A DNA stretch of 21,536 nt from contig CALSCQ010001724.1 in NCBI GenBank assembly GCA_943704525.1, forward strand, positions 1 through 21,536. Direction: 5' to 3'. Every line of letters begins with the position of its first letter. Position 1 is the stretch's first letter. The translations under genes and the position numbers were made by a program. Source of the stretch: Pigoraptor vietnamica. Taxonomy: Eukaryota; Opisthokonta; Filasterea. The notes below the pieces were generated by a model. It saw only the letters and a list, made by a program, of their open reading frames with translations. It was not told the DNA's origin and did not search any database. Of this stretch, positions 1,719 to 21,267 are shown piece by piece.

Positions 1719-4589
1719 TCAGCGGTGCGAGCTCGTGACGAGCACGCGGTAGAGCTGCGTCTGCATGAGGCGTATGTGCACCGCCCCAATCGCGGCCTTC
1801 AGCACAGACACAATCGCGTCGTGTCCATAGCCAACGACGCTCTTCCCGTTCACCTCGATAATCCGATAGCCGATGCACAGCCCCGCCTTATCCGCGAGCC
1901 CTCCTTTGTCGACGCCGGTCACTTCCCCCTCGTACACGTCGAAACCGAGGCGCTGCCCAGCGTCGCGCGTAAACTCAATCTCGATGATCGCCTCTGTCGG
2001 GACGTACTGCACCGTCACCTCGCAGCCCGCAGACACGGCGTTGATCAGCGTGATGGTGTCCTCGAACGGCTTCCCGACGACAGACGTGCCGTTCACAGTC
2101 AAGATCTGGTCGCCGACCGACAGGCCGCCGCAACGCGCGGTGGGGCTGCCGGGGTACACATGGCTGACAAAAATGCCGGGGACGGGCGCAGAGGGCCCGC
2201 TGAGCATGACCATGAAACCGAGCCGCTCGTTCTGCTTCTTGCGAATGACGAGCGTCTTGATGTTGCCGCTGTCGGCGAACGCGAGGAGGTTCTCGTGCGA
2301 CAGCTTCTTCTGTTGTCGCGCGGTTTCGTACGGCGTCGTCGGCGTACCGGACGAGCTCACAGACGATCGCTTTGGAGTCGACGTCGATGACCGCGGGGTG
2401 CCGTCCTGCGCAGCCGCAGCCGAGGCATCGGCGGGCCCGTCGCCCTTGCTCGGGCTCTGTTGTCCGCCGTTCGCCGCAAGGTCGACGTCCTGTTACAACG
2501 AGAAAATGTGAGCTGGTTGTATCATATTTCTCACGCATACTTGTGTGTATGAGCAAGAGCGCGTGCGTGTTCGTGAAATGTACGGATGAACTGCTCGTTT
2601 GTGCGAGCATGCCATTGACACACGCGCAGCTTTGTGAGCAAGAGAAACGGGCGCGACGGAAATCCCACCTGGAAGTCTGTGTCCTCGGCAATTGCATTGT
2701 CCTTTTTGAACTTGCGATAGGCGACCTCAAAGGCCTGGCCGAGTGTGATCGCGATGCGCTCAGCCTGCGGATGGGGGTGAGGGTTAGCACGCAGGCATAT
2801 ACTCACACACATGGAGGTGCACACACTAAAAAACACATGTTCGTGCGGATGGGTGAAAGTAGGCACATACGCACGCGCCAGCACACGCCACAACATACAC
2901 ACATTCGACCAAGCACGCGTTCACGCACGCGTCCGCGCAAACACCACACTACACACACAATCACAAGCACGCCATGGTCATCCACATTTCAAACGAGAAC
3001 AGGCGCATTGCACTGCAAACGAACCGCGTCGGGCGACTCGAACACGAGGACCTCGTGCTTGCCCGAGAAGGGCTCCTTCGCCAGAAAGCCGACGTTCGTG
3101 CCGACCTCGCTCACAAAGAGAATGCGGTGGATGGCGTGCTTGAACGCCACTTTCTGCGCAATAAAGTGCGAGGACAGTGTGAACAGTGCGTCCCGGGTCC
3201 TAAAACCATAAACGCGAGAACGATCGAAAACGCTTCGTGTGCGCAACTCTCACACCGTCCAGACTGCGCGATATCCGGACTCACCTTCGTGGCAATGTCG
3301 ATAACGCGCGTTCCGTTAACCGACACGCACAGGGTCACAGGCGACGACTCTTGCTGTCCCTCCTGCATCGACACGCGTCACGTAAGCACTTGCGAGCGCT
3401 TGAGAGCTGGTGGGAGACAGCGACAGAGACACGTGCGCAGAGGCGAGGAGCTTCCCCCTAGACGACACACACGAAGACAGCATGTGACAGCCGGGAGTGA
3501 GGGACAGTCGCACCTTGAGCTTCGCGATGGCTTCCTTAATGGTGGCGATGCCGCGTGGGCGCTCCACTTCCTCGCGGCCGACAAGCTGTTTTGGAGGAGA
3601 GGAATGAATAGTTGGCCAATCATACGCTCAGATGACGACAAGCACACGCACGCACAAACTTTGTGCGCTCGTATAACAGCCACTCGCGCAAAATAAATTA
3701 ACGACAACGGACAAAACGCACGCTCGTATAACAGCCACTCGCGCAAAATAAATTAACGAGAACGCACACAACACACAAGAATTCCCGCACGCACCGTGAG
3801 ATCGAACTTGATGCCCTCGCCAATGAAGTCCTCCGGCGCGTGCAGCCACGCCTTCTTCTTGCCATCGGCCGCTGCAAACGCCAACGAAACATCCACAGTG
3901 AGCACGTGCGTCGCGGCCGACAATTCCTTCTCCCACATTCACACCGCACAGTCATGAGAGTGAGTACACTCCTCTCCCGCGCACGCTGCCATATGACGCA
4001 CCAAGATAACACCACGATAACACTCATTTCGCACTCCTGCTCACATACCAGGCTCGTTCCGCCCCACAAAGTCGGCAAACGAGTGCGATCGCGCGCGCTT
4101 GGCATCAATCGTCGACGTCAACGACGCCGTCGAGGCACGTGACGCGGACCGCTCGGGCGCTGCATCCCCCTCGGCCGCCTTCTCTGTCGTCTCCGTCGCA
4201 GCCGCTTCCGCGACGCCGTTCGTGACGGCCGCGCCTGTGGAATCCCGCGACCCCTTGCCGAGGTCAATCTCCTTCAAGGACTGCGCGAGATCGCCCGCCT
4301 GCGCCGACGACGCAAGCGAGTTCGACACGGATCCGTCGTCCTCCGTCGCGGGAATGACGTGCGCGCCCGCAGAAGTCGGGGACGCGATCGCTGCGGCTGT
4401 GGTCACGTCGGCACTGACGACGCTCGCGCGCGGGGATGCGCCTTCATCAGCGCCTTGCCCAGAGGGCACTTCGGCCGCGGGAGGCGTGGAAGTGGTCGGC
4501 GCGTCGGTCTCTGTGTTGGGCGCATCTGCCTCGGGTTCCTTGACAGCGACGTCGACGTCACTGACGGCGACGGGCTCTGCCGACTCCAT
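1719..4589 (-). CDS. Mint/X11-like adaptor: PTB domain followed by two PDZ domains
   Basis: Seven exons on the minus strand: 4589-4049, 3871-3795, 3585-3514, 3362-3285, 3153-3025, 2764-2669, 2489-1719. They total 588 codons with the stop (587 aa). Residues 1-180 are an acidic Ala/Thr/Ser-rich, probably disordered region. Residues about 185-331 form a PTB fold, from WLHAPEDFIGEGIKFDLT through VTLCVSVNGTRVIDIATK and the FES-DA/GQAFEVAYRKF helix typical of APBA proteins. After a linker come PDZ1 (about 410-495, loop RLGFMV) and PDZ2 (about 498-575, loop RLGFDV, then IGYRIIEVNGKSVVG and LYRVL near the C-terminus). PTB-PDZ-PDZ order is the hallmark of the X11/Mint family, which in animals couples NPxY-bearing receptors such as APP to trafficking machinery. 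Exon 1 has a GTATGT donor and exon 6 a GCTAACC branch site. The weakest splice is the GTTCGT donor after exon 5. The Munc18-binding and CASK-binding regions of animal Mints are not recognisable. The start at 4589 opens the compositionally coding region; an in-frame ATG at 4829 lies in low-complexity DNA. Confidence 0.85.
2783..2965. repeat. Degenerate CA-rich tract in Mint-like intron 5
   Basis: Short CACACA/CACGCA patches fill the intron between 2765 and 3024. It reads TG-rich on the coding strand and is followed by the branch site and acceptor of exon 6. Confidence 0.7.
3666..3759. repeat. Identical 39-bp tandem duplication in Mint-like intron 2
   Basis: Bases 3666-3704 and 3721-3759 are the same 39-base string (starting CGCTCGTATAACAGCC), with a period of 55. 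Both copies include an AT-rich core, AAAATAAATTAACGA. They lie in the intron between exon 2 (ends 3795) and exon 3 (begins 3585). Confidence 0.95.
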
Positions 4590-5129: not shown

Positions 5130-6453
5130 ATGCTCGCGACTCGCCTCGCTCGGGTATGTGCTGTGTCTGGTGCAATCTAACTTCGCTTCGTGCGGGGCCG
5201 TTACAGTTCTGATGTCGTTGCGCTTATCTGCCAGTCCGCGCGCCCGCTCGTCCGCGGCTATGCTGAAGCTGCGGCTGCTGCTGCGACGGCCACGAAGAGG
5301 GTCCCCAGCCTCAACAGCGTGACGAAGGATGCCGATCCCAGCGGGAGGGGTGGGAGAGTGTGGACATGCGCCCTGCGTCGTTGACCCGAGGCAGTAGCAG
5401 CAACTCATGAATTTCCCGTTTTTTCTTATTTTCACGTGGCGATCGAGCAGCGCCCCAGCACATGAACAAGGTGACACTAATGGGGTACGTCGCCACCGAG
5501 CCCAAGAAGATCAGCGACACGCTCTTCCGCATGCGCATCGGGACGTCCATCCAATACACGGACAGTGAGTGGCAGGGCATCGCAAGCGCTACGTCGTGCC
5601 TTGATGGTCGCTGTTATGTGCCGTGTCCTTGTGTTCCTGTCAGTCTTGTGGATATGTTGACGTCCATGGATTCGACGAAACTCTTGAATAGTCTTTAAGC
5701 ATCCGTCGTTGTCATTAACAGTGGATAGTGAGCATTCCGTCTCTCATGGCCCTTTTCGTGCGTGTCTCCCCCGTTGTCTTCGTCCGCTGCAGAGGCTTCG
5801 AACAAGCCGAAGGTCAAGACGCAGTACCACAATGTCACGCTCTCCGGCAATTTCGAGAAGCTGGCCGAGTCCCTTCGCGTCGGTTCGCAGTTGAACCTCG
5901 AGGGTTCTCTGGAGTACTCGGCGTACGAGAAGAACGGACAGCACGTTGAGACGAGCAATGTCGTCGTGCGGAACTATGGTGAGTGTGCCGTTGTCGCTTA
6001 TATGCGCGTACTCACCGGCACGAGTGTGGCCGTTGTCGCTCGATATGCGCGTACTCTCCGGCACTCTCTCTCCTCACTTCAGTCGATGGGGGTTCCATTC
6101 CCATAATATGACGGCCACGAACTGGTCTTTCCCTCACCACTTCCGTAGCCCATCGCATCCTGTTACTTCCCTCTTCTCCTTGTTGTCGCGCTCTGTCCCC
6201 GTGAGCGTGTGGTCGATGGCTGCATGTGTATGAATTTTACGCTGATCGGACATCTTCCTTGTCTTGAGCTGCGTCGTTTTTCGCGTTGAATGCATCCGAC
6301 TTTTTCTTTTTGTGTGTGTGTGTGTGCGCGCGCGCGCTGATGGACAGTCATCGTGAGGGTGTTCACACTGTTGCGCTCGTTTCTCCCTCCGCAGAGGACC
6401 TGCGCGTGACCAAGTGGGCTCCAAACCCCAACGCCAGCAAGCCCGCCGCTTAA
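5130..6453 (+). CDS. SSBP1: Mitochondrial single-stranded-DNA-binding protein (OB fold)
   Basis: Five exons: 5130-5153, 5235-5318, 5459-5564, 5793-5978, 6395-6453, giving 152 aa, close to the usual length of mtSSB. Residues 1-36 (MLATRLAR, then SARPLVRGYAEAAAAAATAT and basic residues) are Arg/Ala-rich without acidic clusters, as in a mitochondrial presequence. The OB fold starts at MNKVTLMGYVATEPKK and continues with FRMRIGTSIQYTD, YHNVTLSGNFEKLAESLRVG, SQLNLEGSLEYSAYEKNGQ and VVVRNYEDLRVTKW. Known role: coats single-stranded mitochondrial DNA as a tetramer during replication. Intron 1 has a GTATGT donor and CTAAC branch; introns 3 and 4 have GTGAGT donors. The intron 2 donor (GTGACG) is the weakest. 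An acceptor at 5206 for intron 1 would meet a stop at once, which fixes 5235. Introns and presequence exclude a bacterial contaminant. Confidence 0.88.
5981..6064 (+). repeat. Imperfect tandem duplication at the donor end of mtSSB intron 4
   Basis: Copy 1 (5981-6021) and copy 2 (6022-6064) share GAGTGTG(G)CCGTTGTCGCT, then ATATGCGCGTACTC and CCGGCAC, with a few substitutions and a 2-base difference. Copy 1 carries the tail of the GTGAGT donor at 5979. In copy 2 the matching bases read CGAGTG, so the donor is not duplicated intact. Confidence 0.85.
6311..6338. repeat. (TG)n(CG)n microsatellite in mtSSB intron 4
   Basis: TG dinucleotides at about 6311-6326 pass directly into CG dinucleotides to about 6338. 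This alternating purine-pyrimidine stretch lies 60 bases ahead of the last acceptor. Confidence 0.9.
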
Positions 6454-7212
6454 GTCAAACGCCGCGCATTGTTGGTCGCTTCCACCTCTTCGCTCCCTTT
6501 TGGCCGTTATTATGTGCGAAAGAAAGCATCACGGTTGTCAATACTGGGTCATGCTGTAACAGATGTATAGTACTGGTCCATGCTGTTGTAACTGATGTAC
6601 CCTTAGCGAACACATACATTCACACACAAGCAGAGGTACTCACGCACGCGCATAAGACAGGCACGTACACATTATTGTGTACGGCGCGCGTGGGCACATG
6701 CATTAACGCACGAGAAAATACCGCACGAGACACAAACATCCAGTACGATGCTAACTCCCACCTATCGCGGAATCATAACTCCCACCCCAACCCACAACGA
6801 ACATCAGCTTCCACGGACACGGTGTGCCGGACAGGCGGTGCCGTTCTGTGTTTTGGTGTGCGCGCGCTTTGTCACACTCGCACACACGCACACACACGCT
6901 CACGAACGTGCATGCGCACACACACACACCACGCACGCACATGCAATGCGCTCTTCACCCTTCCTGCGCTGCTCTCCCTCTTGCCTCGATCTCTTATTGT
7001 GCGTGCGTTTTTCTCTCCCGAACACCTTGCAGACACGCCCTTCACAACATAACTATTTCTCATCGCGTGTTGGTTTGCGTCCGCCCCATATTTCGTCTTG
7101 TCCAAAAGGCGTCGCTTTGCATTCCCTCAGAGTGCTGAAAGGCTTTGGTGAGAAGAGAGAGCGGCGGTCGCGCAGAGTAGCGCGATCTGCCCCTCCTTTC
7201 CCTCCTTGCAGC
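6454..7212. other. Spacer between mtSSB and the MFS transporter
   Basis: It should contain the mtSSB 3' UTR and the MFS promoter/5' UTR. A roughly 30-base imperfect direct repeat occurs at 6542-6568 and 6571-6600. Degenerate CA-rich patches fill about 6603-6945. A pyrimidine tract and CAG sit two bases before the MFS start (7205-7212), so a 5'-UTR intron acceptor is possible. An ATG at 6748 is in frame with the transporter but would add only low-complexity repeat sequence. No other gene is seen. Confidence 0.55.
6542..6600 (+). repeat. Imperfect direct repeat downstream of mtSSB
   Basis: TACTGGGTCATGCTG-TAACAGATGTA (from 6542) recurs as TACTGGTCCATGCTG with TTGTAACTGATGTA (from 6571). It lies within 150 bases of the mtSSB stop, probably in the 3' UTR. 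Confidence 0.7.
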
Positions 7213-8132
7213 ATGATGGAGTCCGCGGTGGGCGGTTCCGCCCTTCTCTCGCGGCCGATCGAGGGCGGAAACGAACCCGCGCCGCTCGTGGAGAGCCAAG
7301 CATTTGAGAAGCCGCGCTCTATTTCTGGCAGAGATGCGCGTGCGGAGGCGTCGCATGTTCCCGTCACGACCCCTCCGTCGGTGCCTGGCGCGCACGAAAC
7401 GCCGTCCACGCACGTTGAAGAGGGCAAGGGTGGGGATGACGACATAACGGACGTGACGCCAGAGGAACTGCGTCGGCGCAGGCAGTGCTTTGGCGCGCTG
7501 TTCGTGATGGTAGCACTGCTCAACTACGACTCTGGCGCGATCCCGTCGACGCTGACGCAGCTGAGCGACCACTTTAAGCTCGGCTTCTCCGAACAGGGCC
7601 TCGTCGGGTCGCTCGTGTACATTGGCCTCAGCATCACGAGCCTTTTTGCGGGTGTGTGCCTTTGCATTTGTGTGTCGTGCGTGCGTGCTTGCGCGCTCGT
7701 GTTTGTGTGCGTGCAATGCTCGTGAGTGTTGTGTGCGTGCATGTTTATGTGTGCGTTTGTGTGCGTGCATGCCACACTGTGTTTGTTATTTAACGCGTTT
7801 TTATTTGTTGTACTCATTCTTGGTCACGTGCCTTGGATCTCCGCCCTCCCGCGGTCTCACTCACGCCCGCACGCACGCAGGCTATCTCTTCCAGCGCTTT
7901 GACGTGAAGCCCCTCCTCCTCGTGAGCATGGTCTTCTGCGTGGGATTCGACGTCATGTTTGCCTTTGCGCCGAACAAGATCTCCATCTTCGCCGCACGCG
8001 TCGGTGTCGGTCTCTCTCAGGCGCTCATCATTATCTTCACGCCCGTGTGGGTCGACGAATTTGCGCCCGCCGCCCGACGCACCATGTGGATGTCGATTAT
8101 TCAGGTGAGACTGCAAGATATGTCTGTGTGTG

Positions 8133-8214
<82 letters not shown>

Positions 8215-10467
8215 TGTGTGTGTGTGTTTGCGTTTGCGTGCTGGGTCATTCCTGCTTGCTGTTTTATTAGTGCCGTACGTATTGTGTGTGTGTGTGTGTG
8301 TGTGTGTTCGTGTGGATATTGTCCACTAACAATTATTCCCCTCCTCCTCCTCTCCCCCCACACACACAACCACACACACACACACACACACACACATAAC
8401 ACACACACACACACACGCATACGAAAACGCAGGCTGCAGTCCCCGCCGGCATCATGCTCGGATACCTCGTCGGCGGCATTGTTACTCGTTACACGTCGTT
8501 CAACTTTCGCACGCCGTACGTCGTCCAGCTCGTCCTCCTCGCACCCTTCACCATCGCCATGTTCTTCGTTCCCAAGTCGTACTTCACGATTACCACAAGC
8601 GCCGAACCCGAGTCGTCCGACGGCCTCCTCGACGCCCAACAGCAACAGCAACAGCCATCCGCCCAAAGCGCACACTACGTCCCGTTCAAAGAGGAGGGTG
8701 AGCACGTCTCCCCAGCACCGTCCCCGGCGGTCGAAACAGCACACGGGGAGGCGCGCGTGCGCACGTTCACGGTCGCTTCTCCAGGGTCCATTCTCATCCA
8801 ACCCATCGGTTCGGGCGAAGGCGCGCATGCGTCCGCATCTGGCCGTGTGCGCCGCGTTCGCATCGACTCTATCAGCGCGTCCGCCCTCCGCCGCGAGTCC
8901 GTGCGACCCCCTCGCCGCCCGTCTCCCATGGGCATTCCCGGTGAAAGCGTGAACCCTCCGCGCCGTCGGTCGTCGCCACTGGCGGGCCAGACGACGGGTG
9001 AGTCCCTTCTGCAGCAACAGCTGGACGCCCATTTGAGCGCGGACGCGATGGCGGCGAGCGCGTCGTCCCTCGCACCGCCGGCGTCGACGGATGCGCCGCA
9101 CGTTGAGGTGTCGGCGGTGGGGGACGGCGGCGAAGGAAAGAAGCGCCGGAAGCGGGCGGGCGGCGATACGCTCAAGTCGCAGGTCGTCTACCTGCTGAGC
9201 AATAAGATATTCGTTCTGACGGTGTTTGGGATGTCGGCGCTTTATTTTGTGGTGACGGGCATCCAGTTCTGGTGAGTGCGCGGGTCCTTGCTGGCGATGT
9301 GCGTAGGTGTGTTGTGTGTGTGAATGTGTGCGTGTGCGTGCGTGCGTGTATCTTGCCTCTGCGCACACACGCGTGTGGGATACGCCGCTTATCTCTTTTT
9401 GTGTCATGCGATTGCGCAGGATCACGCGCTATCTGACCGATGTCATCAAGGTCGATCTCACCGTGGTGCTCGTCGCATTCGGAGCGACTTCGGCCACTGC
9501 GCCCGTGTCCGGCGTGTTCTTTGGCGGCTATGTCGTCGACAGGCACGTGTGCATTTTCTCCCTCGCTGTGACTCGTGTCTTGATGGCACCGCGTGTGTTT
9601 GTGTACATATTGTGTACATATTAAGCAGTTGCTCTGGTGCAAACACACGCTGTCGATTCCCGCAATGCCCCTTTCCTCTTTCCTCTCTTTGAGAGAGTCG
9701 ACGGGCTTTCAACACCTACGACTTCCCACTGAACTGTTGTCTTTCGTTCCTTTGCGAGCAGGCTCGGCGGCTACAAGGGACGGCGCGGTCTCAACGTCGC
9801 GTCCAAGGTCGGCTCTGTATTTGGGCTCGTGGCCGTCATGTGCGCGGCGCCCATCTGCGTGATCAAAAACTTCTACGGAATCATCGCCTTTATTTGGGTC
9901 CTCCTCTTCTTCGGCGGCGCCATTCTGCCACCGGCGACCGGCATCCTTCTCAGCTGTGTGCCGATGCACCTGCGCTCCCTCGGCGCTTCCATCAGCTCGC
10001 TCTTCTACAACCTGTGCGGCTATTTTGCTGGCCCGTTCATCTCTGGACTTGTCGCCAGCGCCACGGACGACCTCGAGTGGGGGTTCCGGCTCGTCATGAT
10101 GTGGAGCGTCTTTGGACTGTTGGGCATGTTGGGCGCGTGGTACTTTGCCCGGTTCGACCACCGTCACGCCAAGCGCGCCGCGCTCAAGGCACCCGTTACA
10201 GAGTCGACGTCGAGCCTCGTCAAGCCGCTGCTCGGCGCGTCGGAGAGTCAGGAATCGCTGCCGGCGTTCACCGAGGGCGAGAGCGTGCGCATGGCGGGTT
10301 CGACGGCTTCTGCGGTCTCGCAGCGCGCGCAGCATGCAGTGCCTGTGATCGAGGTGGAGGAGAACGGGGACGAGACGGAGGAGAGCGGCGACGAAGCCGT
10401 GACCAAGAACGACGTTGTGTATGAGTTGACGCGCGCGCAGACGCAGCGGCGAGTGTCGTTCTTCTGA
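7213..10467 (+). CDS. Major facilitator superfamily transporter, Spinster-like
   Basis: Five exons: 7213-7651, 7881-8104, 8433-9271, 9420-9542, 9762-10467, giving 776 aa. Residues 1-90 are a hydrophilic N-terminus. TM1 starts at about 92 (CFGALFVMVALLNYDSGAIP) and TM2 at about 129. TM3-6 run through LLLVSMVFCVGFDVMFAFAP and IIIFTPVWVDEFAP to about 268. A cytoplasmic loop of about 200 residues follows (272-470), with a Q6 run and basic RRESV/RRPS/RRRSS sites. TM7 (about 476-501) opens the second half. MFS motif A is clear after TM8: GGYVVDRLGGYKGRR (about 537-551). The tail (about 665-776) is acidic and ends RRVSFF, with a PKA-like RRVS site. Family knowledge: Spinster-type carriers export lysolipids or sphingolipids. 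That placement rests on overall layout and the WVDEFAP/RRTMW region, so the substrate is open. The exon 4 donor is GC (AG|GCACGT), required by phase and by the intact DRLGG motif. Confidence 0.78.
7652..7790. repeat. TG-rich tract in MFS intron 1
   Basis: The donor GTGTGT at 7652 merges into TGTGTGCGTGCG-type repeats up to about 7790. A normal acceptor (ACGCACGCAG) follows at 7880. Confidence 0.8.
8124..8418. repeat. (TG)n at the 5' end and (CA)n at the 3' end of the same intron (MFS intron 2)
   Basis: Within intron 8105-8432, TG repeats run at about 8124-8231 and 8284-8307, and CA repeats at about 8358-8418. In the transcript, GU and AC runs are complementary, so the intron could fold into a long hairpin that brings donor and acceptor together. 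Confidence 0.9.
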
Positions 10468-10694: not shown

Positions 10695-11573
<879 letters not shown>

Positions 11574-11669: not shown

Positions 11670-14600
11670 ATGCCTCCCCTCGCACGCGCCCTGCTGCTTC
11701 CCCTGCGCCGCATAGCCCATGTGCACCGTTGGCAGCCTTCTCACTTCACGGCGCCGTTTCGCTCGGGCGCTCTGTCGCGTGCGTCTGTCTGCGCATCGCG
11801 TGACGGCGCGAGGGCCGTTTCGTGGCGGTGCGTCTCGACTTCGGCGTCCGCAACGTCTGTCAATATTGTAGATCTGCTGATGACTTATGGCGATAACAAT
11901 GTGGAGCTCGCAAAGCTGCTGTGCGACAGGTGCGTGCTTGTGTGTGAGAGTGCTCGTGCTGCTACTTCGCGTCCCGTTGGAATGCATGACACTACGGACA
12001 CGCACACACGCACGTGCACGCACGCATGAAGAAGCGCTCCAGTGCATGTCATTGCGCACATGCACGCACGCACGCACCTCGCACACACACATGCACTCAC
12101 ACGCACGCACGCACACGCACGCACGCATGCACACACGCACATGCATTCACACCCACGCACGCACACTCGCGCACCCTCTCTCACGCACACTTTTAGTAAG
12201 CGAAACTAATCTTGTCACACACTCCGATCTCCCTCAGGCACGCGGACGCAGACGCGACCAAAATCGCCGTGCGTTGCGAGGACCAACACGGACACTCGCG
12301 CGTCCTCACTTTCTCCGAACTGCGCGACCTCTCCTCCTCCTTCGCGCACTTTCTCGAGCACGAGGCGGGCGTTCGAAAGGGCGACGTCGTCGCCGTCCTC
12401 CTTCCTCGCGGCGCAGAACTCGCCGTCGCCGCAGTGGCCGTGTGGCGGCTCGGTGCCGTTTATGTTCCTCTCTTCTGTGCGTTTGGCCAAGATGCCGTCG
12501 AGTACCGCCTCGTACACAGCCGCGCCAAAGTGGTTATCACGGACGCCGCCAACAGGGGCAAGATTGGGATACCCGCCATGCGCTCGAATGGCGCTGCGTT
12601 GGACGACGCGCGTCTCTCTCCCTCCGAAGACGGCGGTGTGGGCACTGCGGGAAGGCGGCGCCGCGCACGTGAGCACGCGTCGCCTGCAAGTGGCAGCAGT
12701 GGGAGCGGAGTGATACTGGACGCGCCCCTTACGCCGCCGCAGGGCATCGCTGTTGTGAACGTGTCGCTCCATGGCGATGCAGACCCTTCGGTGGGAGACT
12801 ACGCCTTTTGGCCGGCGGTGGAACGCAACAAGGCCCGTGGAGTGCGTGCGCCGGCCGTCGTCGAGGGGGAGTCCCCGCTTGCGATTGTGTACACGAGCGG
12901 GACGACGGGAAAGCCGAAGGGTGTCGTTGTCCCCGTGCGAGCACTCGCGTCGTTTGAGATGTACATGCGGGACGGCCTCGAAGTGAGGTGGGCGCCTTGA
13001 TTGGGGATATGCTCGCGTGTGCGGCGTGTCGTGTCGCCGCACGGGAAATCGACTCGTAGCACCGTTGTTACGCAGACACGAGTGTACACTGCACGAACAC
13101 TCGGAGGCACTTTCCACACAGACGCAAATGTGCGCACAGCGCACGTACGCACTCTCACACTCACACACGCCAAAGCGAGTGCGTCATGCATTGTTACTCA
13201 GCTTCATCTTACGCATTGGCGCAGGCCCGATGACCGCTTCTGCAACATGGGCGATCCCGGCTGGGCGTGAGTGTCGGACTAGCACAGTACACACACTGCC
13301 ACTTGTTTAATCTTTGGCCTTTCGGTCATCTTTTGAGTGCGTGCGAAGGTTGTGTCTCCTCATGCGTGCATCTGTCCGCAGATACGGCCTCTACTACGCA
13401 CTACTGGGCCCCCTCGCCCTTGGCACGACGACCGTCTTCGTCAACGCGCGCTTTGAGCCGCACCGGTGCCTCGAAACCATGCGCAAGTACGGCATCACGA
13501 ACTTTGCCGCGGCGCCCACCGTGTACCGGTCGCTCCGCGCGGCACTCGTCGTCGCCGACGGCAGCGGCCCCGTGCACAAGCTGCGGCGCGCGTCTTCCGC
13601 AGGGGAGCCGCTTGAGCCCGAGGTGGCGCGGTGGGGCGAGGGCTTCTTTGGCGTTCGGATCCGAGACCACTACGGGCAGACGGAGTTGGGGATGGTGGCG
13701 GGACAGACAGGGAAGGACGCGCCCTCGGAACAGCACGTGGATGCGCAGGGCGGCGAAGGGGCATCGATGGGCCGCGCACTGCCGGGGTTCACTCTCGCTG
13801 TCGTCGAGCCAAGCGAGGAAGAGGCGCGCGCTGCTGCGGCTGCCGCTCCAAGTGGCGAAAAGGACGATGGAGAAGCGGGCGTGCATGTGGAAGGTCCCGG
13901 GGCCACGGAAAGGGCAGACGGAACGGCCGGCGAACTCGCGGTGGACGTCGGCAACTCGCCGCTTTTCTGGTTCAGGGGTTATCTGTCGGACCCGGTCAAG
14001 TCGGCGTCGCGTTTTGGGCCGCGTGGGCACTATCTCACCGGCGACGTCGCTTACAGGGATGCCGCGAGTGGCGCGTTTGTGTTCACCGGGCGCGCAGACG
14101 ACGTCATCAAGACGTCAGGGCATCGCGTGGGCCCCTTTGAGGTTGAGAGGTGTGTGGTGGCCTGCGTACACGTAGCTCGCTTGTTACTGATGCAAAGAGG
14201 GAAGGCCCCTTGCGTGTTGTTCGTCGAAGACAGCCAAAATCAATCGTGTGCGCTTGCCTTCCTTTGTACTATTCTCTGACCGCTTGTCACTTTGTGGTCT
14301 CATTTCTTCCCCCGTCCCCGGTCCCTCTTCCGTTTTCAGCGCGCTGGCTGCACACCCGCGCGTCGCAGAGGCCGCGTGCATCGGCGTGCCGGACGACGTC
14401 AAGGGCCACGTGATAAAGGCCTACCTGGTGCTCGCGCCGCACGCACACGCCGAGCCGCAGCACAGCGCCGGCGACGGTGAACACCACGGACGCCACTCGC
14501 ACGCGCACTCGCGACTGATCGACGAACTGCGCGCGGCGGTGCGCGTGGGTGTGGGTGCGCACGCCATTCCGCGACACTTTGAGATATGCGAGTCTCTTCC

Positions 14601-14679
14601 CAAAACGCCGAGCGGAAAAGTGCAGCGCAACGTCCTTAAAGCAATGCACGCCGAGGCAAGCAAGGTACCGCAGCGATAG
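11670..14679 (+). CDS. Mitochondrial medium-chain-type acyl-CoA synthetase (ANL superfamily)
   Basis: Five exons: 11670-11929, 12238-12987, 13225-13266, 13382-14149, 14340-14679, giving 719 aa. The N-terminus (MPPLARALLLPLRRIAHVHR, then Arg/Ser-rich) looks like a mitochondrial presequence. Residues 88-336 hold the first part of the AMP-binding domain, ending with the P-loop YTSGTTGKPKG (305-315). DPGWAYGLYYALLGPLALG spans exons 3-4. The adenylate motif HYGQTELG is at about 447-454, then YLTGDVAYRD. The hinge motif is FTGRADDVIKTSGHRVGPFE (585-604), and the catalytic-lysine motif is LPKTPSGKVQR (Lys700). All core motifs are intact. Known reaction: fatty acid + ATP + CoA to acyl-CoA + AMP + PPi. 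YGQTE and the GRADD..SG.R.GP.E form resemble ACSM enzymes, but acetyl- or propionyl-CoA synthetase-like specificity cannot be excluded. It exceeds human ACSM (about 577 aa) because of inserts before the P-loop, after YGQTE and in the C-domain (His-rich, 641-664). All introns are phase 2. Confidence 0.85.
11996..12186. repeat. CACG/CA-rich tract in the synthetase intron 1
   Basis: CACGCA, CACACG and ATGCACAC patches fill most of the intron 11930-12237. A CTAAT branch-like site and a pyrimidine-rich acceptor (CTCCCTCAG) follow. Confidence 0.8.
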
Positions 14680-14963: not shown

Positions 14964-15849
14964 CTACACGCGGCTGGCACCCGGCTTGTCCTGAGGTGCT
15001 GCGTACGGCGACTCCTGCGGCAGCGAATACAAGTCCTGCTCAGCCGTACCCTTCTTGGTCGGACGTGCGTACGCCACCGGTTCGTTGTCCCCAGTCGCGA
15101 CGTAATAGTGCGATCCTGCGGCAGCGGCCGTGCCCTGTGGGGTCGCATACGACGACGACGCTCCCCCCTGCGGCGTCGCGTACGCCATCCCTCCCTGTTG
15201 CGGGTCGGCGTACGCGCTGCCCATCGGATCGTACAGTGACATGTTGCGCTGGCCCTGCGGTGCCGAGTACCCGCCCTGAGGCGCCGCATACGCATCCCCC
15301 GCCTGGGGTGCGGCATAATCAGCCCCACTCCCTTGCGGCGCAGCGTAGCCAGTTCCCTGAGGGGCAGCGATTCCCTGAGGGGCAGCGTAGCCTTGCGGCG
15401 CAGCATAGCTGGCAGCCTGTCCCTGCGGTGTTGAATAGTTCGCCTGCGGAGACGAGTAGTCGTTGCCGCCGGGCGTTGCGTACGTCGACTTGACGTGGGG
15501 TGTCGAGTAGGCCGACGCGCGTTCCTTGCCCTGTGGCGCAGAGTACCCGTCGCCCCCCTGCGGCGTCGAGTACGCCGACGCGCGCTGCGGGGTCGAATAG
15601 CTCGACTTGTGTGGGTCGAGATACCCGCCAACCTCGGCGTATGTGTCCTCGTCCTTTGGGGGACGGTTTCGCGGCGTCACTTCAGCGTAGTGGTCCTCGC
15701 TCTCCGCGCCGCCAACAGCCTCGTACGTCGGGTTGGCGTTCACGTGCACCGACGTCTTTCCTATCTGCGCGTATGTGGGGTCTGCGAGCGAGTCCATGCT
15801 CATCGATGGCTTGATGACGGGGTTTGCGTTCATCCCGCTCGAGTTTTGC
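14964..15849 (-). other. Cytoplasmic tail exon: 20 YxxP motifs, NPTY motif, C-terminal S-R-V
   Basis: The final exon encodes 294 residues with all 27 tail tyrosines. Membrane-proximal motifs are YAQI, NPTYEAV (NPTY at 15723-15734), HYAEV and TYAEV. Then come 20 YxxP sites: YAAP x6, YSTP x4, YATP x3, YSAP x2, and one each of YSSP, YLDP, YADP, YARP and YSLP. Most are followed by Q or QG, giving a Y-A/S-x-P-Q-G unit of 6-10 residues. One unit has lost its tyrosine (GIAAPQG). The last residues are A-S-R-V. Known: pYxxP is the preferred ligand of Crk/Nck-type SH2 domains, and S/T-x-V at a C-terminus is a class I PDZ ligand. Confidence 0.88.
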
Positions 15850-16379
15850 CTGCGAGTGAAAGAGGTGTTGTAAGCGACGCTGAAGGGACTCGCCCTCGCA
15901 TACACGCGGGTTACAGTACGGTGGACGCGCAGCGGAGTGTACGTGAATAAACAAGTGGCAATATTCACATGTGCGCAAAAATGCATACAGTGTGCGTGCA
16001 CTGATGGGCACCGACCAGGGGGTCAGCTCCGTTAGTACGATCCCCGAGTTGCGCTTGACGAAATCGGCCCTGATGACAAAAACAAGTGTGGTTTGAGTGC
16101 GCGCCAACAACGCGAATCGTTGTTAAAAAGAACATTACATGACATGGATTGCAATGTACACGACAACATCACAGGCGCAACAGCTCGCAGGGAAGTGCGC
16201 AAAAGGGAGACCCACTTCTGCTGGCGCTTGGAGCGGACTTTCCTGCAACGCGAGGGCCGCGAAAGGCTTGTTAGTGATGAAGCACATAGAGCCCCTCCCG
16301 CGCTCACGCGTGGGCCATCTCATGCAGGGAACAATTACAGCACATACGCAACACGCACACACACGCGCGCGCGCATACG

Positions 16380-16413
<34 letters not shown>

Positions 16414-16464
16414 CACATACACACACGCACACGCACACACACATACACACACGCACACGCACGC

Positions 16465-16529
<65 letters not shown>

Positions 16530-18141
16530 GACGCACACTTCGCTCGCGCTCACCTCGCCACAAAGTATCCCACGAGACACACGACGACGACGCCTCCAGC
16601 AGCACCGCCCGCAACGGCGGCCATCGGGATTCCGCCGCCACCTTTGCTCTGCGTTCCACCACCGCCAATGTTGTTGCCGGTGCCCCCGTTCCCGCCATTT
16701 CCGCTCCCGCCGTTGCCACCCCCGCCGCCTGCATCGCCACCGCCACCGCCGCTGCCACCCGTCGCAGACGCCGCAGGCGTTACAGTAGTCGTCGGTCGGT
16801 TCGACGAAGCGGGGCCGCCGGGTGTGCTGGTACCCGCGGGAGCGCCCGTTGTCGCGGTGGCGGCGAAGGTCGTTGTCTGCGCCACGGCCGTCGTGGAGGG
16901 CGGTTCGGGCGTGTACGTGCGGTGAGCGCGCACGGAACTCTCCGATTCAGCCGCGATTGCGGAGCTTGACGAGAGAATGTTCCTGATCGAGGAGAACACC
17001 AGCGCAGCAGAGCTCGACGATACGGCCGCAGAGCTTGCAGACGCGACGGCCGCTGCGGTTGCCGAACTGGCAGACGCGGCGGTGGCTACTGTCGCCGAAC
17101 TTGCCGACACGGCGGCGAGTGCGGACGACGTGGAGAGGAGGCGACGGGCGGCGGCGCGACAGTCGTCGATGGTCAACGCGGTTGCGTCGGCAATGCACGT
17201 GCAGTTGAGCGACAGCATGTCACGCTGGAAGCCTGTGGCGCAGAGGCACGCGGTGCGGTCGGGGCTCACGGACTGCGGAGGGGGACGACTGGGGCGTCAG
17301 TACGTGTACGTGGCTAATGTCACACAATAGCATGCGACGATCAATTCAACCGAAAAAGAAAGATAGAGACATGTGACCTCTCGTTCTCTTTTGTCCATCG
17401 ACTCCACAGAAATGAAGAGAGAAATCAACTGGCAAAGTGAGAGAAAGACGGAGAGGGCGCCAAAACGTGGCTGACACTCGCCTGCGCAAGTCCAGAAGGG
17501 CAGTCGAGGCACGCGGATTGCGCCTTGTCCGGCTGAAATTTCTCAGGCGCACACGGGGTTCGCACGCCGTCGTTGCACGAATAGCCCGCAGGACACGCTG
17601 GAGTAACGAGAATGGCATGTGCCGATGAGATCGCATGCACCATCCAAAAGTATGATCGACCTCGCACACGTGCACACACATGGCATTCACGCACGCTACG
17701 CACGTCCAATATCATACATCGTAAACAGTGCGTGCGGAACACAACCACACTCGAAGTCTCGAAGAGAAAAAAAACGGCAACGGAGACCCACTTTCGCACG
17801 ACCCGCTGTTGTTCCAGTACCCAGCGATGCGGCACACGCACGCCGACAGCGCCTTGGCCCCCGCAGAAAGGGTCGTCGTGCCGACTGGACAGTCCAGACA
17901 CGACGTCTTGCCGGTGGAAGGCTGGTACGTACCAGTGCGGCAACTCGTCACGACGCCGAGCACGCAATATTCGCCGGCGCCGCAGTCTTCCCGAGGGTAA
18001 GAGGGACAGCGTCAGGATGCACGCACACGCACGGTTCGTGTCCACGCAATGCACTCGCGCACAGACACACACGTACACACACACACACACACAAAAGCAA
18101 TACACGCACACACACACAAAGGCAATACACGCACATACACG

Positions 18142-18223
<82 letters not shown>

Positions 18224-20561
18224 CAAACCGAGCCCACTCACCCACGCACGTCGTCCCCGACGCGTCCGACTTTTGTCCGTCGGGGCAAATGCAGCGCGTG
18301 TTGCCGCTTCCAGCTGGCGCCGATACATCCGGGGCGCCCACAAGGGGGGAAGGGCACTGGCGACAGGCGATCGTCCATCGCGGCGTGTTCGTAAAGTCAT
18401 TGCCGAGACAGAGCTCGGGCTTGGTCTGTCCAATGGTGCGGCACGTCGTTCCCGCGGGACACTCTGCAAGGAGCACACGCGTAAACAGCGAGCCCACACG
18501 CACACACACAGCGAAGGTGGATATGAACGCCGTCGGCCGCGCACGCGCGTGTGGAAAAAGATGCCGCACGATGAATGCGGCTGCACATAACGGCTTAGCA
18601 AGGCGATTGTAAGGCACACAGACACCCACGGACGCAGACGCCGTCGCTTCCCAAGTACGTGCCGAGCACGCAATAACACTGCGTGCGGTTGGTGGCCGCC
18701 GTCGTTGCTGTCGTCATGAGCTTTTTGCTGTCGCACGGAGTGCACGTCGTCGCACCGGGGACGTCGTTGTAGGACCCCTTCTCGCATGCAATAAGCTGTC
18801 CCGCGCTGCAACGGTACCCGAGCGGGCACGCTGTGCGCAGAGAGACGGCATTAGACGCAGCCACGCACAGAACACAATCAGACGTCTGCCCACGCCACCC
18901 CAACACACACGCGCGCACACGCCCGCACACAGATACTCGCAGACACACCCACTCACATACAAAAACTCGCACACGCATACACACAGACACACATAGAACA
19001 CACACACACGCACACGCACACACACAGACATACACAGAACACTCCCACGCACACAACACACACACGCCCCTGTGTCTCCAGCGTCACGCACCAATGCAGA
19101 ACTCGGTGGCAAGGTTCGCAGTGCCGCTGTACTTAGACGTAATGTACAGGCCGTCGTTGCATCGGCACTCGGGAAAGGATGTCGCGTCGGCGCCCACGGC
19201 GGTTGGCGGGCACACAAAGCAGTTGCCCGACTGGAGATAGAACCCCTTCGGGCACGACGTCAGCGCACCCGTGCACGTGGCACCGGGCGGACAGGCTGCG
19301 AGTCACGTGAGAGTGCTTAGCGTCCGTGCATGGGCGACAGTGGGACTCGCGTGTGAAGGCGCGGGAAAGTAAGGCTCGAACAACTAAGTGAAACCAAACG
19401 GGGTGGAACATCGCTCAAACAGCCACGGGCGCACGATGCAGACTGAGCCGCCGACCACTGAAGCGAACGAGGGAGTGGGGAGCGCAAACTCCGCAGCAGC
19501 GAAAATGGAATAGACGCAAATACATGACAGTGGCAAGGAGGGAAACTCACGGGCGCAGAGCGTCTGGCCGGTCGGGAGGTAGTAGCCCTGCTTGCAGAGG
19601 CACTGGTCCGCCGAGGTTGCACCGGGATTTGTCGAGCTGTTAGGGTCGGAACACGCCGTGCACGACGACTGTCCCGTCAGCGGCTGGTAGGTGCCGGCGG
19701 TGCAAGACGCCGACATGCCGCTCTTGCAGAAGGAGCCCGCGGCGCACACTGCGAGTGTGTCCGAGTTAGTGTAGCGACTGGCGGCCTCACATTGCAGTGG
19801 AGTGTGCACACGACCACGTGCGCTGTGCGGTTCATTACAGCGGTGTGTGTGTGTGTGTGTGTGGAGGGGGGTGGGGAGGGGGGGAGATCACAGTACTGGA
19901 TTGCGAGCGGGACCATGCGCGTTGTGCAATTCTTGACAGTCCACGCAACTCACGTGCGCACACTCGATTCGTGTAGTCGAGGTAATAGCCGTCGTTGCAA
20001 ATGCAATCGGCGAACCGTGTAGACCCCTGCGCCGCCGTCTTCGAATTCGCGGGGCAGTTGTTGCACGTTGAGGACGCGATACTGTCTTGGTACGTGTTCT
20101 GCCCGCACGGGACTTCCACGTTGTTGGGGCACATGTAGCCCACACGGCATGCTGCGCCGTGAGTTCGTGCGTGTGAGTATGTGCGAAAGTGTGCGCGTGC
20201 GTGCGTATCGGCTTAAAAGTGAAACGATAACAAAAATGGGACGGTTGGGCGACCAGTGAAAAACCGGATTGCCAACAAAAGGAGAAAAAGAACAACTGCG
20301 CACCGGAGAGGGAGGGGGGGAGGGGAGGGGGAGGGGGAGAGGGAGGGGAGAGGGAGAGGGGATGGCACACATAGTGACCGACCCTGTGTATCATCTCACC
20401 ATTGCACCCGAACGTCGTGCACGTGTCCGTCTTGCACTGCGGCACATAGCCCGGGTTGCACGTGCACGTCTGCGCGTTGCAGTTGGGGGCGCCCAAGGCG
20501 TCGCACAGCTCGCTCGGATGCAGGACACCGTCTCCGCACACTGCGCCATGGGAGAAGCAAA

Positions 20562-20608
<47 letters not shown>

Positions 20609-21267
20609 GGGGGGGGGGGGGGGGGGGTATTTTCTCAGCCTATTTTCGAACAACGAGGCTCAGAAGGTTTGCGGCTTCAGCGCACGTTTTCCCACCAGGA
20701 GGTCGCGTGCTGTTCTCACGACCCCAATATCAGTAGGAGCAACAAACTGGTGTCACTTCTCTCCCTCAGTCGCTCACCTTGCGGGCACCACGCAGCGCTG
20801 TTGTACCTCGTCGCAAACACGCACGTCGTCTGCTTGATCTCCTCAGGCATGAGCAGCTTCTTCACAACAAGCAGCTCGCGCATCGTCACGCACGACGACT
20901 TCGTGGTCGGCACGCCGGCAATCGTTCCGGAGCACGTGTAGTCGCTGCAGTCCGTCGTGCACGTACCGGGAACGCCACCGAGGACGGGCGGCGCGGGCAA
21001 AGGCGTCGACTCGTCCAGCGCGGTGAGCGAAAAGTCGGTGCTCTTTTTCACGCCGTCCACCCATATCGAATACGTCGACTGAAACGCGTCCGTAATAACA
21101 GAGACGAGGTGGAGCACGCGCGTCCCCTTGTTCTTGTCGTTCGTGATCCAGTCCGTGCACGGCCAGTACGTCGTCGGGTCCCCCCCGAATATTTTAAGGT
21201 CAATCTCATCAAAGCTGGCGCACACGCGGTACTGGACGTTGTTGCCTGGGTTCATCTGGAGCCCAAT
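14964..21267 (-). CDS. Single-pass receptor-like protein: LamG-like segment, cysteine modules, stalk, membrane helix, YxxP-rich tail (5' incomplete)
   Basis: Twelve exons on the minus strand: 21267-20778, 20540-20400, 20151-19954, 19748-19551, 19295-19092, 18830-18630, 18463-18242, 17986-17792, 17597-17482, 17272-16554, 16069-15989 (or 16016) and 15849-14964. They give 1,216 or 1,207 residues; the start lies upstream. The first exon has a jelly-roll/LamG-like signature (TRVLHLVSVITDAFQSTYSI, WVDGVKK). The second has the CGDGVLHPSELCD motif seen in myxococcal-type Cys-rich repeats. Seven modules of about 65-74 residues follow, with eight cysteines each, of the ephrin-receptor-like/GCC2-GCC3 type. 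Then come a Ser/Ala/Thr- and Gly-rich stalk, a membrane helix (MAAVAGGAAGGVVVVCLVGY, with small-residue packing motifs) and basic residues RADFVKR. The tail is a tyrosine-rich scaffold without a kinase domain. One intron (17273-17481) uses a GC donor, CAG|GCGAGT. Expected place: plasma membrane, signalling through tyrosine phosphorylation. The protein's identity is unknown to me; the parts are read from motifs. Confidence 0.8.
16341..16530. repeat. (CA)n microsatellite in the receptor intron after the membrane exon
   Basis: Dense CA and CACACG repeats within intron 16070-16553, on the coding strand TG-rich and close to the GTGAGC donor at 16553. Confidence 0.9.
16557..17170 (-). other. Stalk and membrane helix of the receptor
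   Basis: From about 17170 to 17000 the coding strand gives near-repeats of about ten residues rich in A, S, T and V (ASASSATAAAVASASSAA). A Thr/Pro-rich stretch follows (PEPPSTTAVAQTTT, NRPTTTVTPAAS), probably O-glycosylated. A Gly-rich stretch comes next (about 16770-16640) and then one hydrophobic helix (about 16632-16557) with GGAAGG small-residue packing. The layout fits a mucin-like spacer holding the cysteine modules off the membrane. Confidence 0.75.
18060..18225. repeat. (CA)n microsatellite in a receptor intron
   Basis: Fills intron 17987-18241. It is pure CA at about 18150-18220 and sits directly beside the GTGAGT donor at 18241 on the coding strand. Confidence 0.92.
18900..19070. 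repeat. Degenerate CA-rich tract in a receptor intron
   Basis: CACACG, CACACAGACA and similar units occupy intron 18831-19091 between cysteine modules 3 and 4. Confidence 0.85.
19843..19862. repeat. (GT)10 microsatellite in a receptor intron
   Basis: Ten GT units followed by G-rich DNA (GGAGGGGGGTGGGG) within intron 19749-19953. Confidence 0.9.
20305..20362. repeat. Polypurine G-run tract in a receptor intron
   Basis: About 58 bases of almost only G and A, with repeated runs of four or more G, in intron 20152-20399. The coding strand is a polypyrimidine tract. The G-runs could form a quadruplex on the plus strand. Confidence 0.88.
20562..20627. repeat. (TG)22 followed by a run of 20 G
   Basis: TG repeats at about 20562-20605 are followed by TT and then 20 uninterrupted G at 20608-20627, in intron 20541-20777. 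Exact lengths of such runs are error-prone in assemblies. Confidence 0.9.

Follow-up and report, generated by a model that had tools for sequence, protein, structure and literature searches.

The human protein p130Cas (BCAR1) contains 15 YxxP motifs (PMC2689226; PMC5043372), and the presence of at least three such motifs in 100-kDa intracellular proteins has been called rare (PMC2689226). Here, we analyzed a stretch of 21,536 nucleotides from the filasterean Pigoraptor vietnamica (contig CALSCQ010001724.1; hereafter the window) and describe a gene on its reverse strand whose last exon encodes 20 YxxP motifs. Our reading, held with moderate confidence, is that the product would be a type I membrane receptor lacking a kinase, whose tail, once phosphorylated on tyrosine in response to a stimulus, would dock SH2 adaptors that read YxxP, most likely of the Crk type. 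A preliminary description of this DNA had stated that dense YxxP arrays are known from soluble scaffolds, which is outdated given the membrane examples published for S. rosetta (PMC5043372) and for DCBLD1 and DCBLD2 (PMC6029619).

PMC5043372 reports YxxP repeats in the cytosolic part of five transmembrane proteins from choanoflagellates, the names given being PTSG_05573, 12435 and 12436 of S. rosetta and A9VAL3 and A9V449 of M. brevicollis; the three S. rosetta proteins have 10, 9 and 5 YxxP motifs. Phosphorylated (pYDVP) peptides from one such choanoflagellate protein were measured to bind the SH2 domain of M. brevicollis Crk, and a chained profile retrieved further YxxP membrane proteins from Capsaspora, a filasterean (PMC5043372). 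The DCBLD1 and DCBLD2 receptors contain 8 and 7 intracellular YxxP motifs, are phosphorylated by Fyn and Abl and recruit the SH2 domain of CRKL (PMC6029619). In the tail of the M. brevicollis receptor kinase RTKB2, there are six tyrosine-bearing RM2 domains, one of which bound SH2 when phosphorylated (PMC3584944).

The window protein resembles the choanoflagellate proteins in carrying many YxxP in a cytosolic tail behind a membrane helix (its own topology was assigned by eye) and in having no SH3 or other bcar1-like domain. The choanoflagellate proteins have been proposed to be ligands of the Crk SH2 domain, and one of them, A9V449, likewise has a cysteine-rich, growth-factor-receptor-like ectodomain. 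It differs in motif number (20 compared with 10, 9 and 5 in S. rosetta), in the C-terminal SH2-like domains that three of the five proteins carry and that were not found here, in the motif (pYDVP was tested in choanoflagellates, as opposed to Y[A/S]xPQG in the window) and in its Ephrin_rec_like repeats (PMC5043372). A dense array and the absence of a catalytic domain are shared with p130Cas, but the window protein is predicted to be a membrane receptor, and SH3 and FAT/CAS_C domains were not found in its readable part. The vertebrate DCBLD1 and DCBLD2 are likewise single-pass receptors with intracellular YxxP motifs and no kinase; however, they have fewer motifs and a CUB/LCCL/discoidin ectodomain (PMC6029619), whereas Pfam found none of these domains in the readable ectodomain of the window protein, which is built of other repeats. 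RTKB2 is also a single-pass receptor with repeated tyrosines in its tail, but it carries a kinase (PMC3584944). In searches of the open-licence PMC literature, we recognized no publication on the window gene or on a 20-site YxxP receptor. Since membrane YxxP arrays are already known, what is new here is the size of the array, the largest on a membrane protein that we have met, together with its distinct consensus and the presence in this genome of another protein built in a similar way.

The YxxP array of the tail exon

The last exon contains the following features:

14964..15849, reverse strand: tail exon, 294 residues with 27 tyrosines in one long open frame, TAG stop at 14966-14964
14994..15623, reverse strand: YxxP array, 20 motifs, YLDP first and YAAP last
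15630..15773, reverse strand: membrane-proximal tyrosines (YAQI, NPTYEAV, YAEV and YAEV) preceding the array

Recounting from the translation of 15849-14964 reproduced the numbers of the preliminary description, with 20 of the 27 tyrosines in YxxP. Sixteen of the 20 motifs extend to YxxPQ and 10 to YxxPQG, and 206 residues separate the first YxxP from the last; a multi-YxxP region of this kind is also a feature of the Cas family, as its substrate domain. When the residues of the tail were shuffled 20,000 times, the mean number of YxxP was 2.9 and the maximum 10. Proline was present at +3 of 20 of the 27 tyrosines and at most five times at any other offset from -6 to +6. Alignment of the 20 motifs gave the consensus Y[A/S][A/T]PQG, with Ala or Ser at +1 in 19 (Leu in the remaining one), Ala or Thr at +2 in 15, Gln at +4 in 16 and Gly at +5 in 11; the residue at -1 was Ala, Gly or Ser in 14. 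Synonymous codons are mixed among the units, their spacing is irregular (6-26 residues), and Tandem Repeats Finder reported only short rows of approximately 2-3 copies in this exon; thus, the tail is not a young DNA repeat, and the kept feature is the spacing within the YxxP motif. YDPM (a YxxM) and SHYYVAT are located inside the array region, and NPTYEAV contains NPxY, a PTB-type motif.

It might be argued that such a tail serves phase separation or clustering and involves no phosphotyrosine recognition, considering how uneven its composition is (50 Ala, 33 Gly, 32 Pro, 31 Ser, 27 Tyr and 23 Gln among 294 residues). However, aromatic clustering would need neither the proline at +3 nor a YxxPQG unit that recurs in a second membrane protein of the genome (on contig C428, see below), and this explanation appears improbable to us.

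The receptor gene model

Upstream of the tail exon, the gene was modeled as follows:

20778..21267, reverse strand: first exon within the window, N-terminal ectodomain, from open frame and splice phases
17482..20540, reverse strand: eight cysteine-rich ectodomain exons, each entered in phase 1
20540-20400, 20151-19954, 19748-19551 and 19295-19092, reverse strand: the first four of these
18830-18630, 18463-18242, 17986-17792 and 17597-17482, reverse strand: the last four
16554..17272, reverse strand: exon with the final cysteine-rich part, a Ser/Thr/Gly-rich stalk and the membrane helix
16554..16630, reverse strand: single membrane helix IPMAAVAGGAAGGVVVVCLVGYFVA, assigned by eye, with RKVRSKRQQK directly after it
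16216..16242, reverse strand: 27-base juxtamembrane exon, from in-frame joining
16016..16069, reverse strand: 54-base juxtamembrane exon ADFVKRNSGIVLTELTPW, resembling the juxtamembranes of receptor kinases of the same genome

In this in silico model, whose exon borders were picked by eye, 13 exons (21267-14964, reverse strand) join without a stop into 1216 residues, with consistent splice phases. The donor sequence is GTGAGN, GTGGGT or GTGCGT in 10 of 12 cases, the ninth donor (at 17482) reads GCGAGT, and the acceptor of the tail exon is CACTCGCAG followed directly by G. A Pfam search of the joined protein matched Ephrin_rec_like in five stretches (E 8e-22), and GRP was below threshold. No kinase, SH2, SH3 or FAT domain was found by Pfam in the readable 1216 residues, the extreme N-terminus being off the contig. 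The preliminary claim that the array is fused to a cysteine-rich ectodomain without a kinase domain is therefore borne out in silico by in-frame phases and Pfam. An ephrin-binding domain was not found in the readable part, whose N-terminus runs off the contig, nor were SAM and kinase domains found after the helix; Eph receptors share the Ephrin_rec_like repeats only. By eye, no signal peptide was recognized in the readable part of this gene, whose 5' end is off the contig. Judging from RKVRSKRQQK after the helix and the positive-inside rule, the tail should be cytosolic.

On the other hand, the tail exon might be part of another transcript and unjoined to the receptor. The donor preceding it is a weak GTCGGT, the tail frame is open for 58 codons upstream of the acceptor, and the last intron (166 bases, 16015-15850, reverse strand) contains no stop in the incoming frame; a transcript read through it would shift frame and end in a short tail that lacks the array (open reading frame 15682-16122, with one chance YCNP). 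Retention of this stop-free but frame-shifting intron, if it occurs, would therefore yield an array-free form. However, all three introns 3' of the membrane exon are in phase 2, the juxtamembrane exons resemble receptor-kinase juxtamembranes, and the C428 protein holds a helix and a like array unspliced in a single open frame. We thus consider an error of the gene model to be quite improbable.

With the joined protein as query, a database search gave 11 proteins at E<=0.001 (8000 scored), with 24-30% identity over 22-39% of the query and no clear orthologue among them. The sequences of three of the 11 were inspected, and most rows had no protein name. One of the matches (P0005) is similar in having an Ephrin_rec_like/TNFR cysteine-rich ectodomain, one membrane helix (by eye), a tyrosine-bearing tail and no kinase family; in contrast to the window protein, its counted 335-residue piece has 12 tyrosines and one YxxP. 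None of the YxxP proteins of PMC5043372 was named in the rows of the joined-protein and tail searches, most of which are nameless.

A second array protein, receptor kinases of the same genome and neighboring genes

The assembly searched comprises 32.5 Mb in 1395 contigs. With the window tail as query, only the tail itself was retrieved at E<=0.001 (9 candidates), and four rows at E<=10: itself, C428 twice (0.27 and 3.3) and C845 (3.9). The C428 protein, found through this weak match, was then backed by motif counts and a pattern scan. It has a threonine-rich stalk (TPTTGAP-rich), a membrane helix and a 281-residue tail in a single uninterrupted open frame, and the tail contains 23 tyrosines, 14 YxxP, 11 YxxPQ and 7 YxxPQG; 20,000 shuffles of this tail gave a mean of 2.0 YxxP and a maximum of 9. 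Around the helix, C428 reads SQTKSGGG-helix-RRRR and the window protein TQSKGGGG-helix-RKVR. A search of the genome with the C428 tail retrieved itself, C1188 (0.12) and the window (0.35 and 0.72). In the codon-pattern scan for Y[A/S]xPQG, to which other YxxP consensus types would be invisible, the genome gave 30 matches, of which the window tail holds 10 and C428 holds 7, the remaining 13 lying singly on as many further contigs; the backward-read pattern gave 15. There are thus two arrays of the Y[A/S]xPQG consensus in the assembly, each behind a membrane helix. Six YxxP occur in a tyrosine phosphatase frame of 953 residues (L085, on C1192); five of these, YYPPQG and YAPPQG among them, fall in the final 160 residues, which are Pro/Gln-rich.

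The protein kinase family gave at least 177 matches in the genome (134 of 718 candidates scored). Among 30 excised kinase loci, 11 contain HRDLAARN, at ten places (L039 and L046 overlap); L051 matches the motif only when it is relaxed and is by eye of the serine/threonine type. The receptor kinases L029-L036 and L089 share with the window protein a single-pass architecture, likeness in the juxtamembrane and YAE[VL], but carry a kinase and lack YxxP in their readable tails. YAE[VL], which recalls the membrane-proximal YAEV of the window protein, was present in the tails of six of the 11 rows. The window juxtamembrane RKVRSKRQQKADFVKRN resembles RRERSKMAQAEFVKKH of L036. When it was compared with 14 kinase juxtamembranes, 4 of 2000 shuffles came up to the summed score and 13 to the best score; this test was chosen after the sequences had been seen, and left out L032 (near-identical to L031) and L046 (same gene as L039). 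For the C428 juxtamembrane, the corresponding counts were 483 and 763 of 2000, so that it scored no better than shuffled sequence. The juxtamembrane likeness and YAE[VL] fit a descent from receptor kinases but do not prove it. An intron shared with L089 was considered but is not claimed: the juxtamembrane/kinase border corresponds, but the phases differ (0 against 2), and the position moves by some four residues between alternative alignments.

The same likeness, together with the absence of a kinase domain, could be read as the mark of a non-functional or decaying receptor that formerly bore a kinase. This is extremely unlikely in our opinion, as 13 exons are open and phase-consistent, and the Tyr-Pro spacing has been kept over 20 units despite diverged codons.

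Further observations concern the kinases themselves. L036 (on C327) and L089 (on C845) are receptor kinases with long glycine-rich repetitive ectodomains, the latter reached by chance through the weak tail match. Among the 37 relatives of L036 listed at E<=1e-60 (8000 candidates scored), four Opistho-1/Opistho-2 entries had the highest identities (41-50%) but ranked 13th or lower by E-value, the first row (P0012) being a protein of repeated kinase domains. Opistho-1 and Opistho-2 are clones of P. vietnamica and P. chileana, and Pigoraptor lies within Filasterea. PF13229, presumably Beta_helix, was found in two of these four Pigoraptor relatives. C472 (L073, L074, L076, L078 and L081) has Ephrin_rec_like matches within open frames of great length, 6489 and 6067 aa.

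Several other genes were recognized in the window. An AMP-binding enzyme of the acyl-CoA ligase type (12203-14679, forward strand; Pfam 2e-37 on 12203-13000 and 8.2e-19 on 13314-14279) is convergent with the receptor gene. A transporter-like gene (8400-10467, forward strand) matched Sugar_tr barely above the cut-off (6.7e-5 on 8400-9275) and MFS_1 below it (4.2e-6 on 9733-10467); the open frame upstream of it, at 6607-7725, matched no Pfam family. The remaining pieces encode a single-strand binding protein, perhaps mitochondrial (5732-6106, forward strand; SSB 6.2e-8), a protein with two PDZ stretches (1719-2492, reverse strand; 6e-24) and part of a protein kinase (10999-11505, reverse strand; Pkinase 1.8e-9) with a long GT run alongside. 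Long AC/GT runs also occur within introns of the window, such as 16351-16528, which was reported by Tandem Repeats Finder.

Candidate partners and proposed mode of action

Profile searches of the genome gave 27 exon-level matches for SH2 (30 candidates), 81 for SH3 and 16 for classical tyrosine phosphatases. From domain order, judged by eye, candidate proteins could be assigned in outline: RasGAP-like on C1251 (SH2-SH3-SH2), Nck-like on C388, Grb2-like on C699 and C1253, PLC-gamma-like on C1220, SHP-like on C1247 and Src-like on C68 (N-terminal MGCVGSK). The kinase on C972 is one that we take to be Tec-like, its PH domain and kinase having been judged by eye; its SH2 exon at first looked Abl-like, an assignment given up on these grounds. 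No Abl orthologue was identified, the genome search for F_actin_bind having no positive control (control genomes likewise gave no match), and a genome-wide search for CAS_C, equally without a positive control (none in the control genomes either), gave no matches.

The best candidate for a Crk is an SH2-SH3 protein on C367, in which SH2 and then SH3_1 were both above cut-off and whose best PDB matches were CRKL (6.9e-35), CRK (2.1e-33) and then Grb2 (2.8e-30). In M. brevicollis Crk, the proline pocket is formed by Y55, I66, Y81 and L86 and the phosphate site by R15 and R33 (PMC5043372). By a gap-free mapping with a constant offset of 7, made in this analysis, the corresponding C367 residues are Y48, V59, Y74 and L79, and R8 and R26. 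Three of the four pocket residues are identical and one is conservative, which suggests that the pocket for proline at +3 is nearly intact. The lysine after the pocket tyrosine (K56) is exclusive to choanoflagellate Crk (PMC5043372), and C367 has Ile at this place. Two further proteins were less distinct: C1154 matched CRKL best (1.2e-24), and in C305 Grb2 (3.1e-22) was slightly ahead of CRKL (2.2e-20). Integrin beta was matched on C661 (2.1e-51) and C928 (6.1e-26). Choanoflagellates are without integrin beta and Pigoraptor has integrins according to PMC7147346, which we followed here; a figure legend of PMC5043372 differs, giving integrin-based signaling complexes as absent in choanozoa and filasterea. 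On the grounds of integrin beta and of the Ile in C367, a choanoflagellate origin of the genome was rejected, and the receptor-kinase identities given above mark it as filasterean-like.

Based on these data, a docking mechanism may be proposed. Binding of a ligand or partner by the Ephrin_rec_like cysteine-rich ectodomain would cluster the receptor, and a separate kinase, either cytosolic (Src- or Tec-type) or a receptor kinase acting in trans, would then phosphorylate several YxxP sites. Several SH2 adaptors could be held at once, most likely Crk-type SH2-SH3 proteins, because the C367 pocket residues are conserved and pYDVP binding to M. brevicollis Crk SH2 has been published (PMC5043372), and their SH3 partners would act at the membrane. 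The mode of action would be similar to that of the p130Cas substrate domain and the DCBLD receptors, with anchoring by an own helix instead of SH3/FAT. The array, the in silico gene model, the second array protein and the presence of partner genes are direct results, whereas we infer the disorder and topology of the tail, its phosphorylation, the choice of SH2 domain and the output. The idea put forward in the preliminary description, namely a membrane-anchored docking platform whose phosphorylation is left to another protein with tyrosine kinase activity, remains the best reading, with partner genes (SH2 proteins, kinases and phosphatases) present in the genome; the novelty it implied did not stand. 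Its suggestion of Crk-type SH2 recruitment is in agreement with the nearly conserved C367 pocket, but is weaker than had been stated, since 19 of the 20 motifs have Ala or Ser at +1, as opposed to Asp in pYDVP (PMC5043372).

Because of this Ala or Ser, SH2 domains other than Crk should also be considered. The array might be a phosphotyrosine array read by RasGAP-, Tec- or Src-type SH2 domains, with Crk secondary, and YA[A/T]PQ may reflect the kinase. Beside +1, the Gln at +4 (16 of 20) points in this direction, as do the RasGAP-like SH2-SH3-SH2 protein and the Tec-like kinase in the genome. YAAP is also the core of abltide (EAIYAAPFAKKK), a synthetic Abl substrate, and the Abl consensus is I/V/L-Y-x-x-P/F (PMC4532999). 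However, 14 of the 20 motifs carry Ala, Gly or Ser at -1, where Abl prefers I/V/L, the search described above identified no Abl orthologue, and the genome encodes a Crk whose pocket is nearly conserved. A non-Crk reader is therefore rather unlikely in our view.

Several findings weigh against a Crk-recruiting receptor tail and should be taken into account. Asp is never found at +1 of the YxxP motifs, and Crk binding is not assured. The 5' end of the gene is off the contig, the window being a complete contig (C704), and the donor preceding the tail exon is the weak one noted above. A database search with the tail retrieved nothing at E<=1 (7999 candidates scored), although low-complexity tails may escape such a search, and a Tyr/Gly/Gln/Pro-rich low-complexity tail could serve other uses. 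Among the HRDLAARN kinase rows, none of 11 has YxxP in its tail (L050 has no readable tail). Homology between the window and C428 arrays is not established either, considering the E-values of 0.27 and 3.3 and a pairwise alignment dominated by repeats.

PMC5043372 asks by what means Crk was linked to the membrane at a time when there were no Cas proteins. A tentative and rather doubtful scenario is that the window receptor arose from a receptor tyrosine kinase whose kinase exons were exchanged at a juxtamembrane intron for the YxxP array exon, giving a non-catalytic multivalent co-receptor that does the job of p130Cas from the membrane side. Together with C428, it would form a two-member filasterean class with a Y[A/S]xPQG code independent of Cas, and crosstalk between integrins and array receptors via Crk could predate Cas.

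A 20-site YxxP tail, a second array receptor, a candidate Crk whose pocket is nearly conserved, cytosolic tyrosine kinases and integrin beta thus come together in a single unicellular organism outside the choanoflagellates. This gene set provides a concrete test case for the membrane tethering of Crk before Cas. If the proposed reading is true, holozoans would have made repeated use of membrane receptors with dense YxxP docking tails, and Cas would be either a later detached version of such a tail or a parallel invention.
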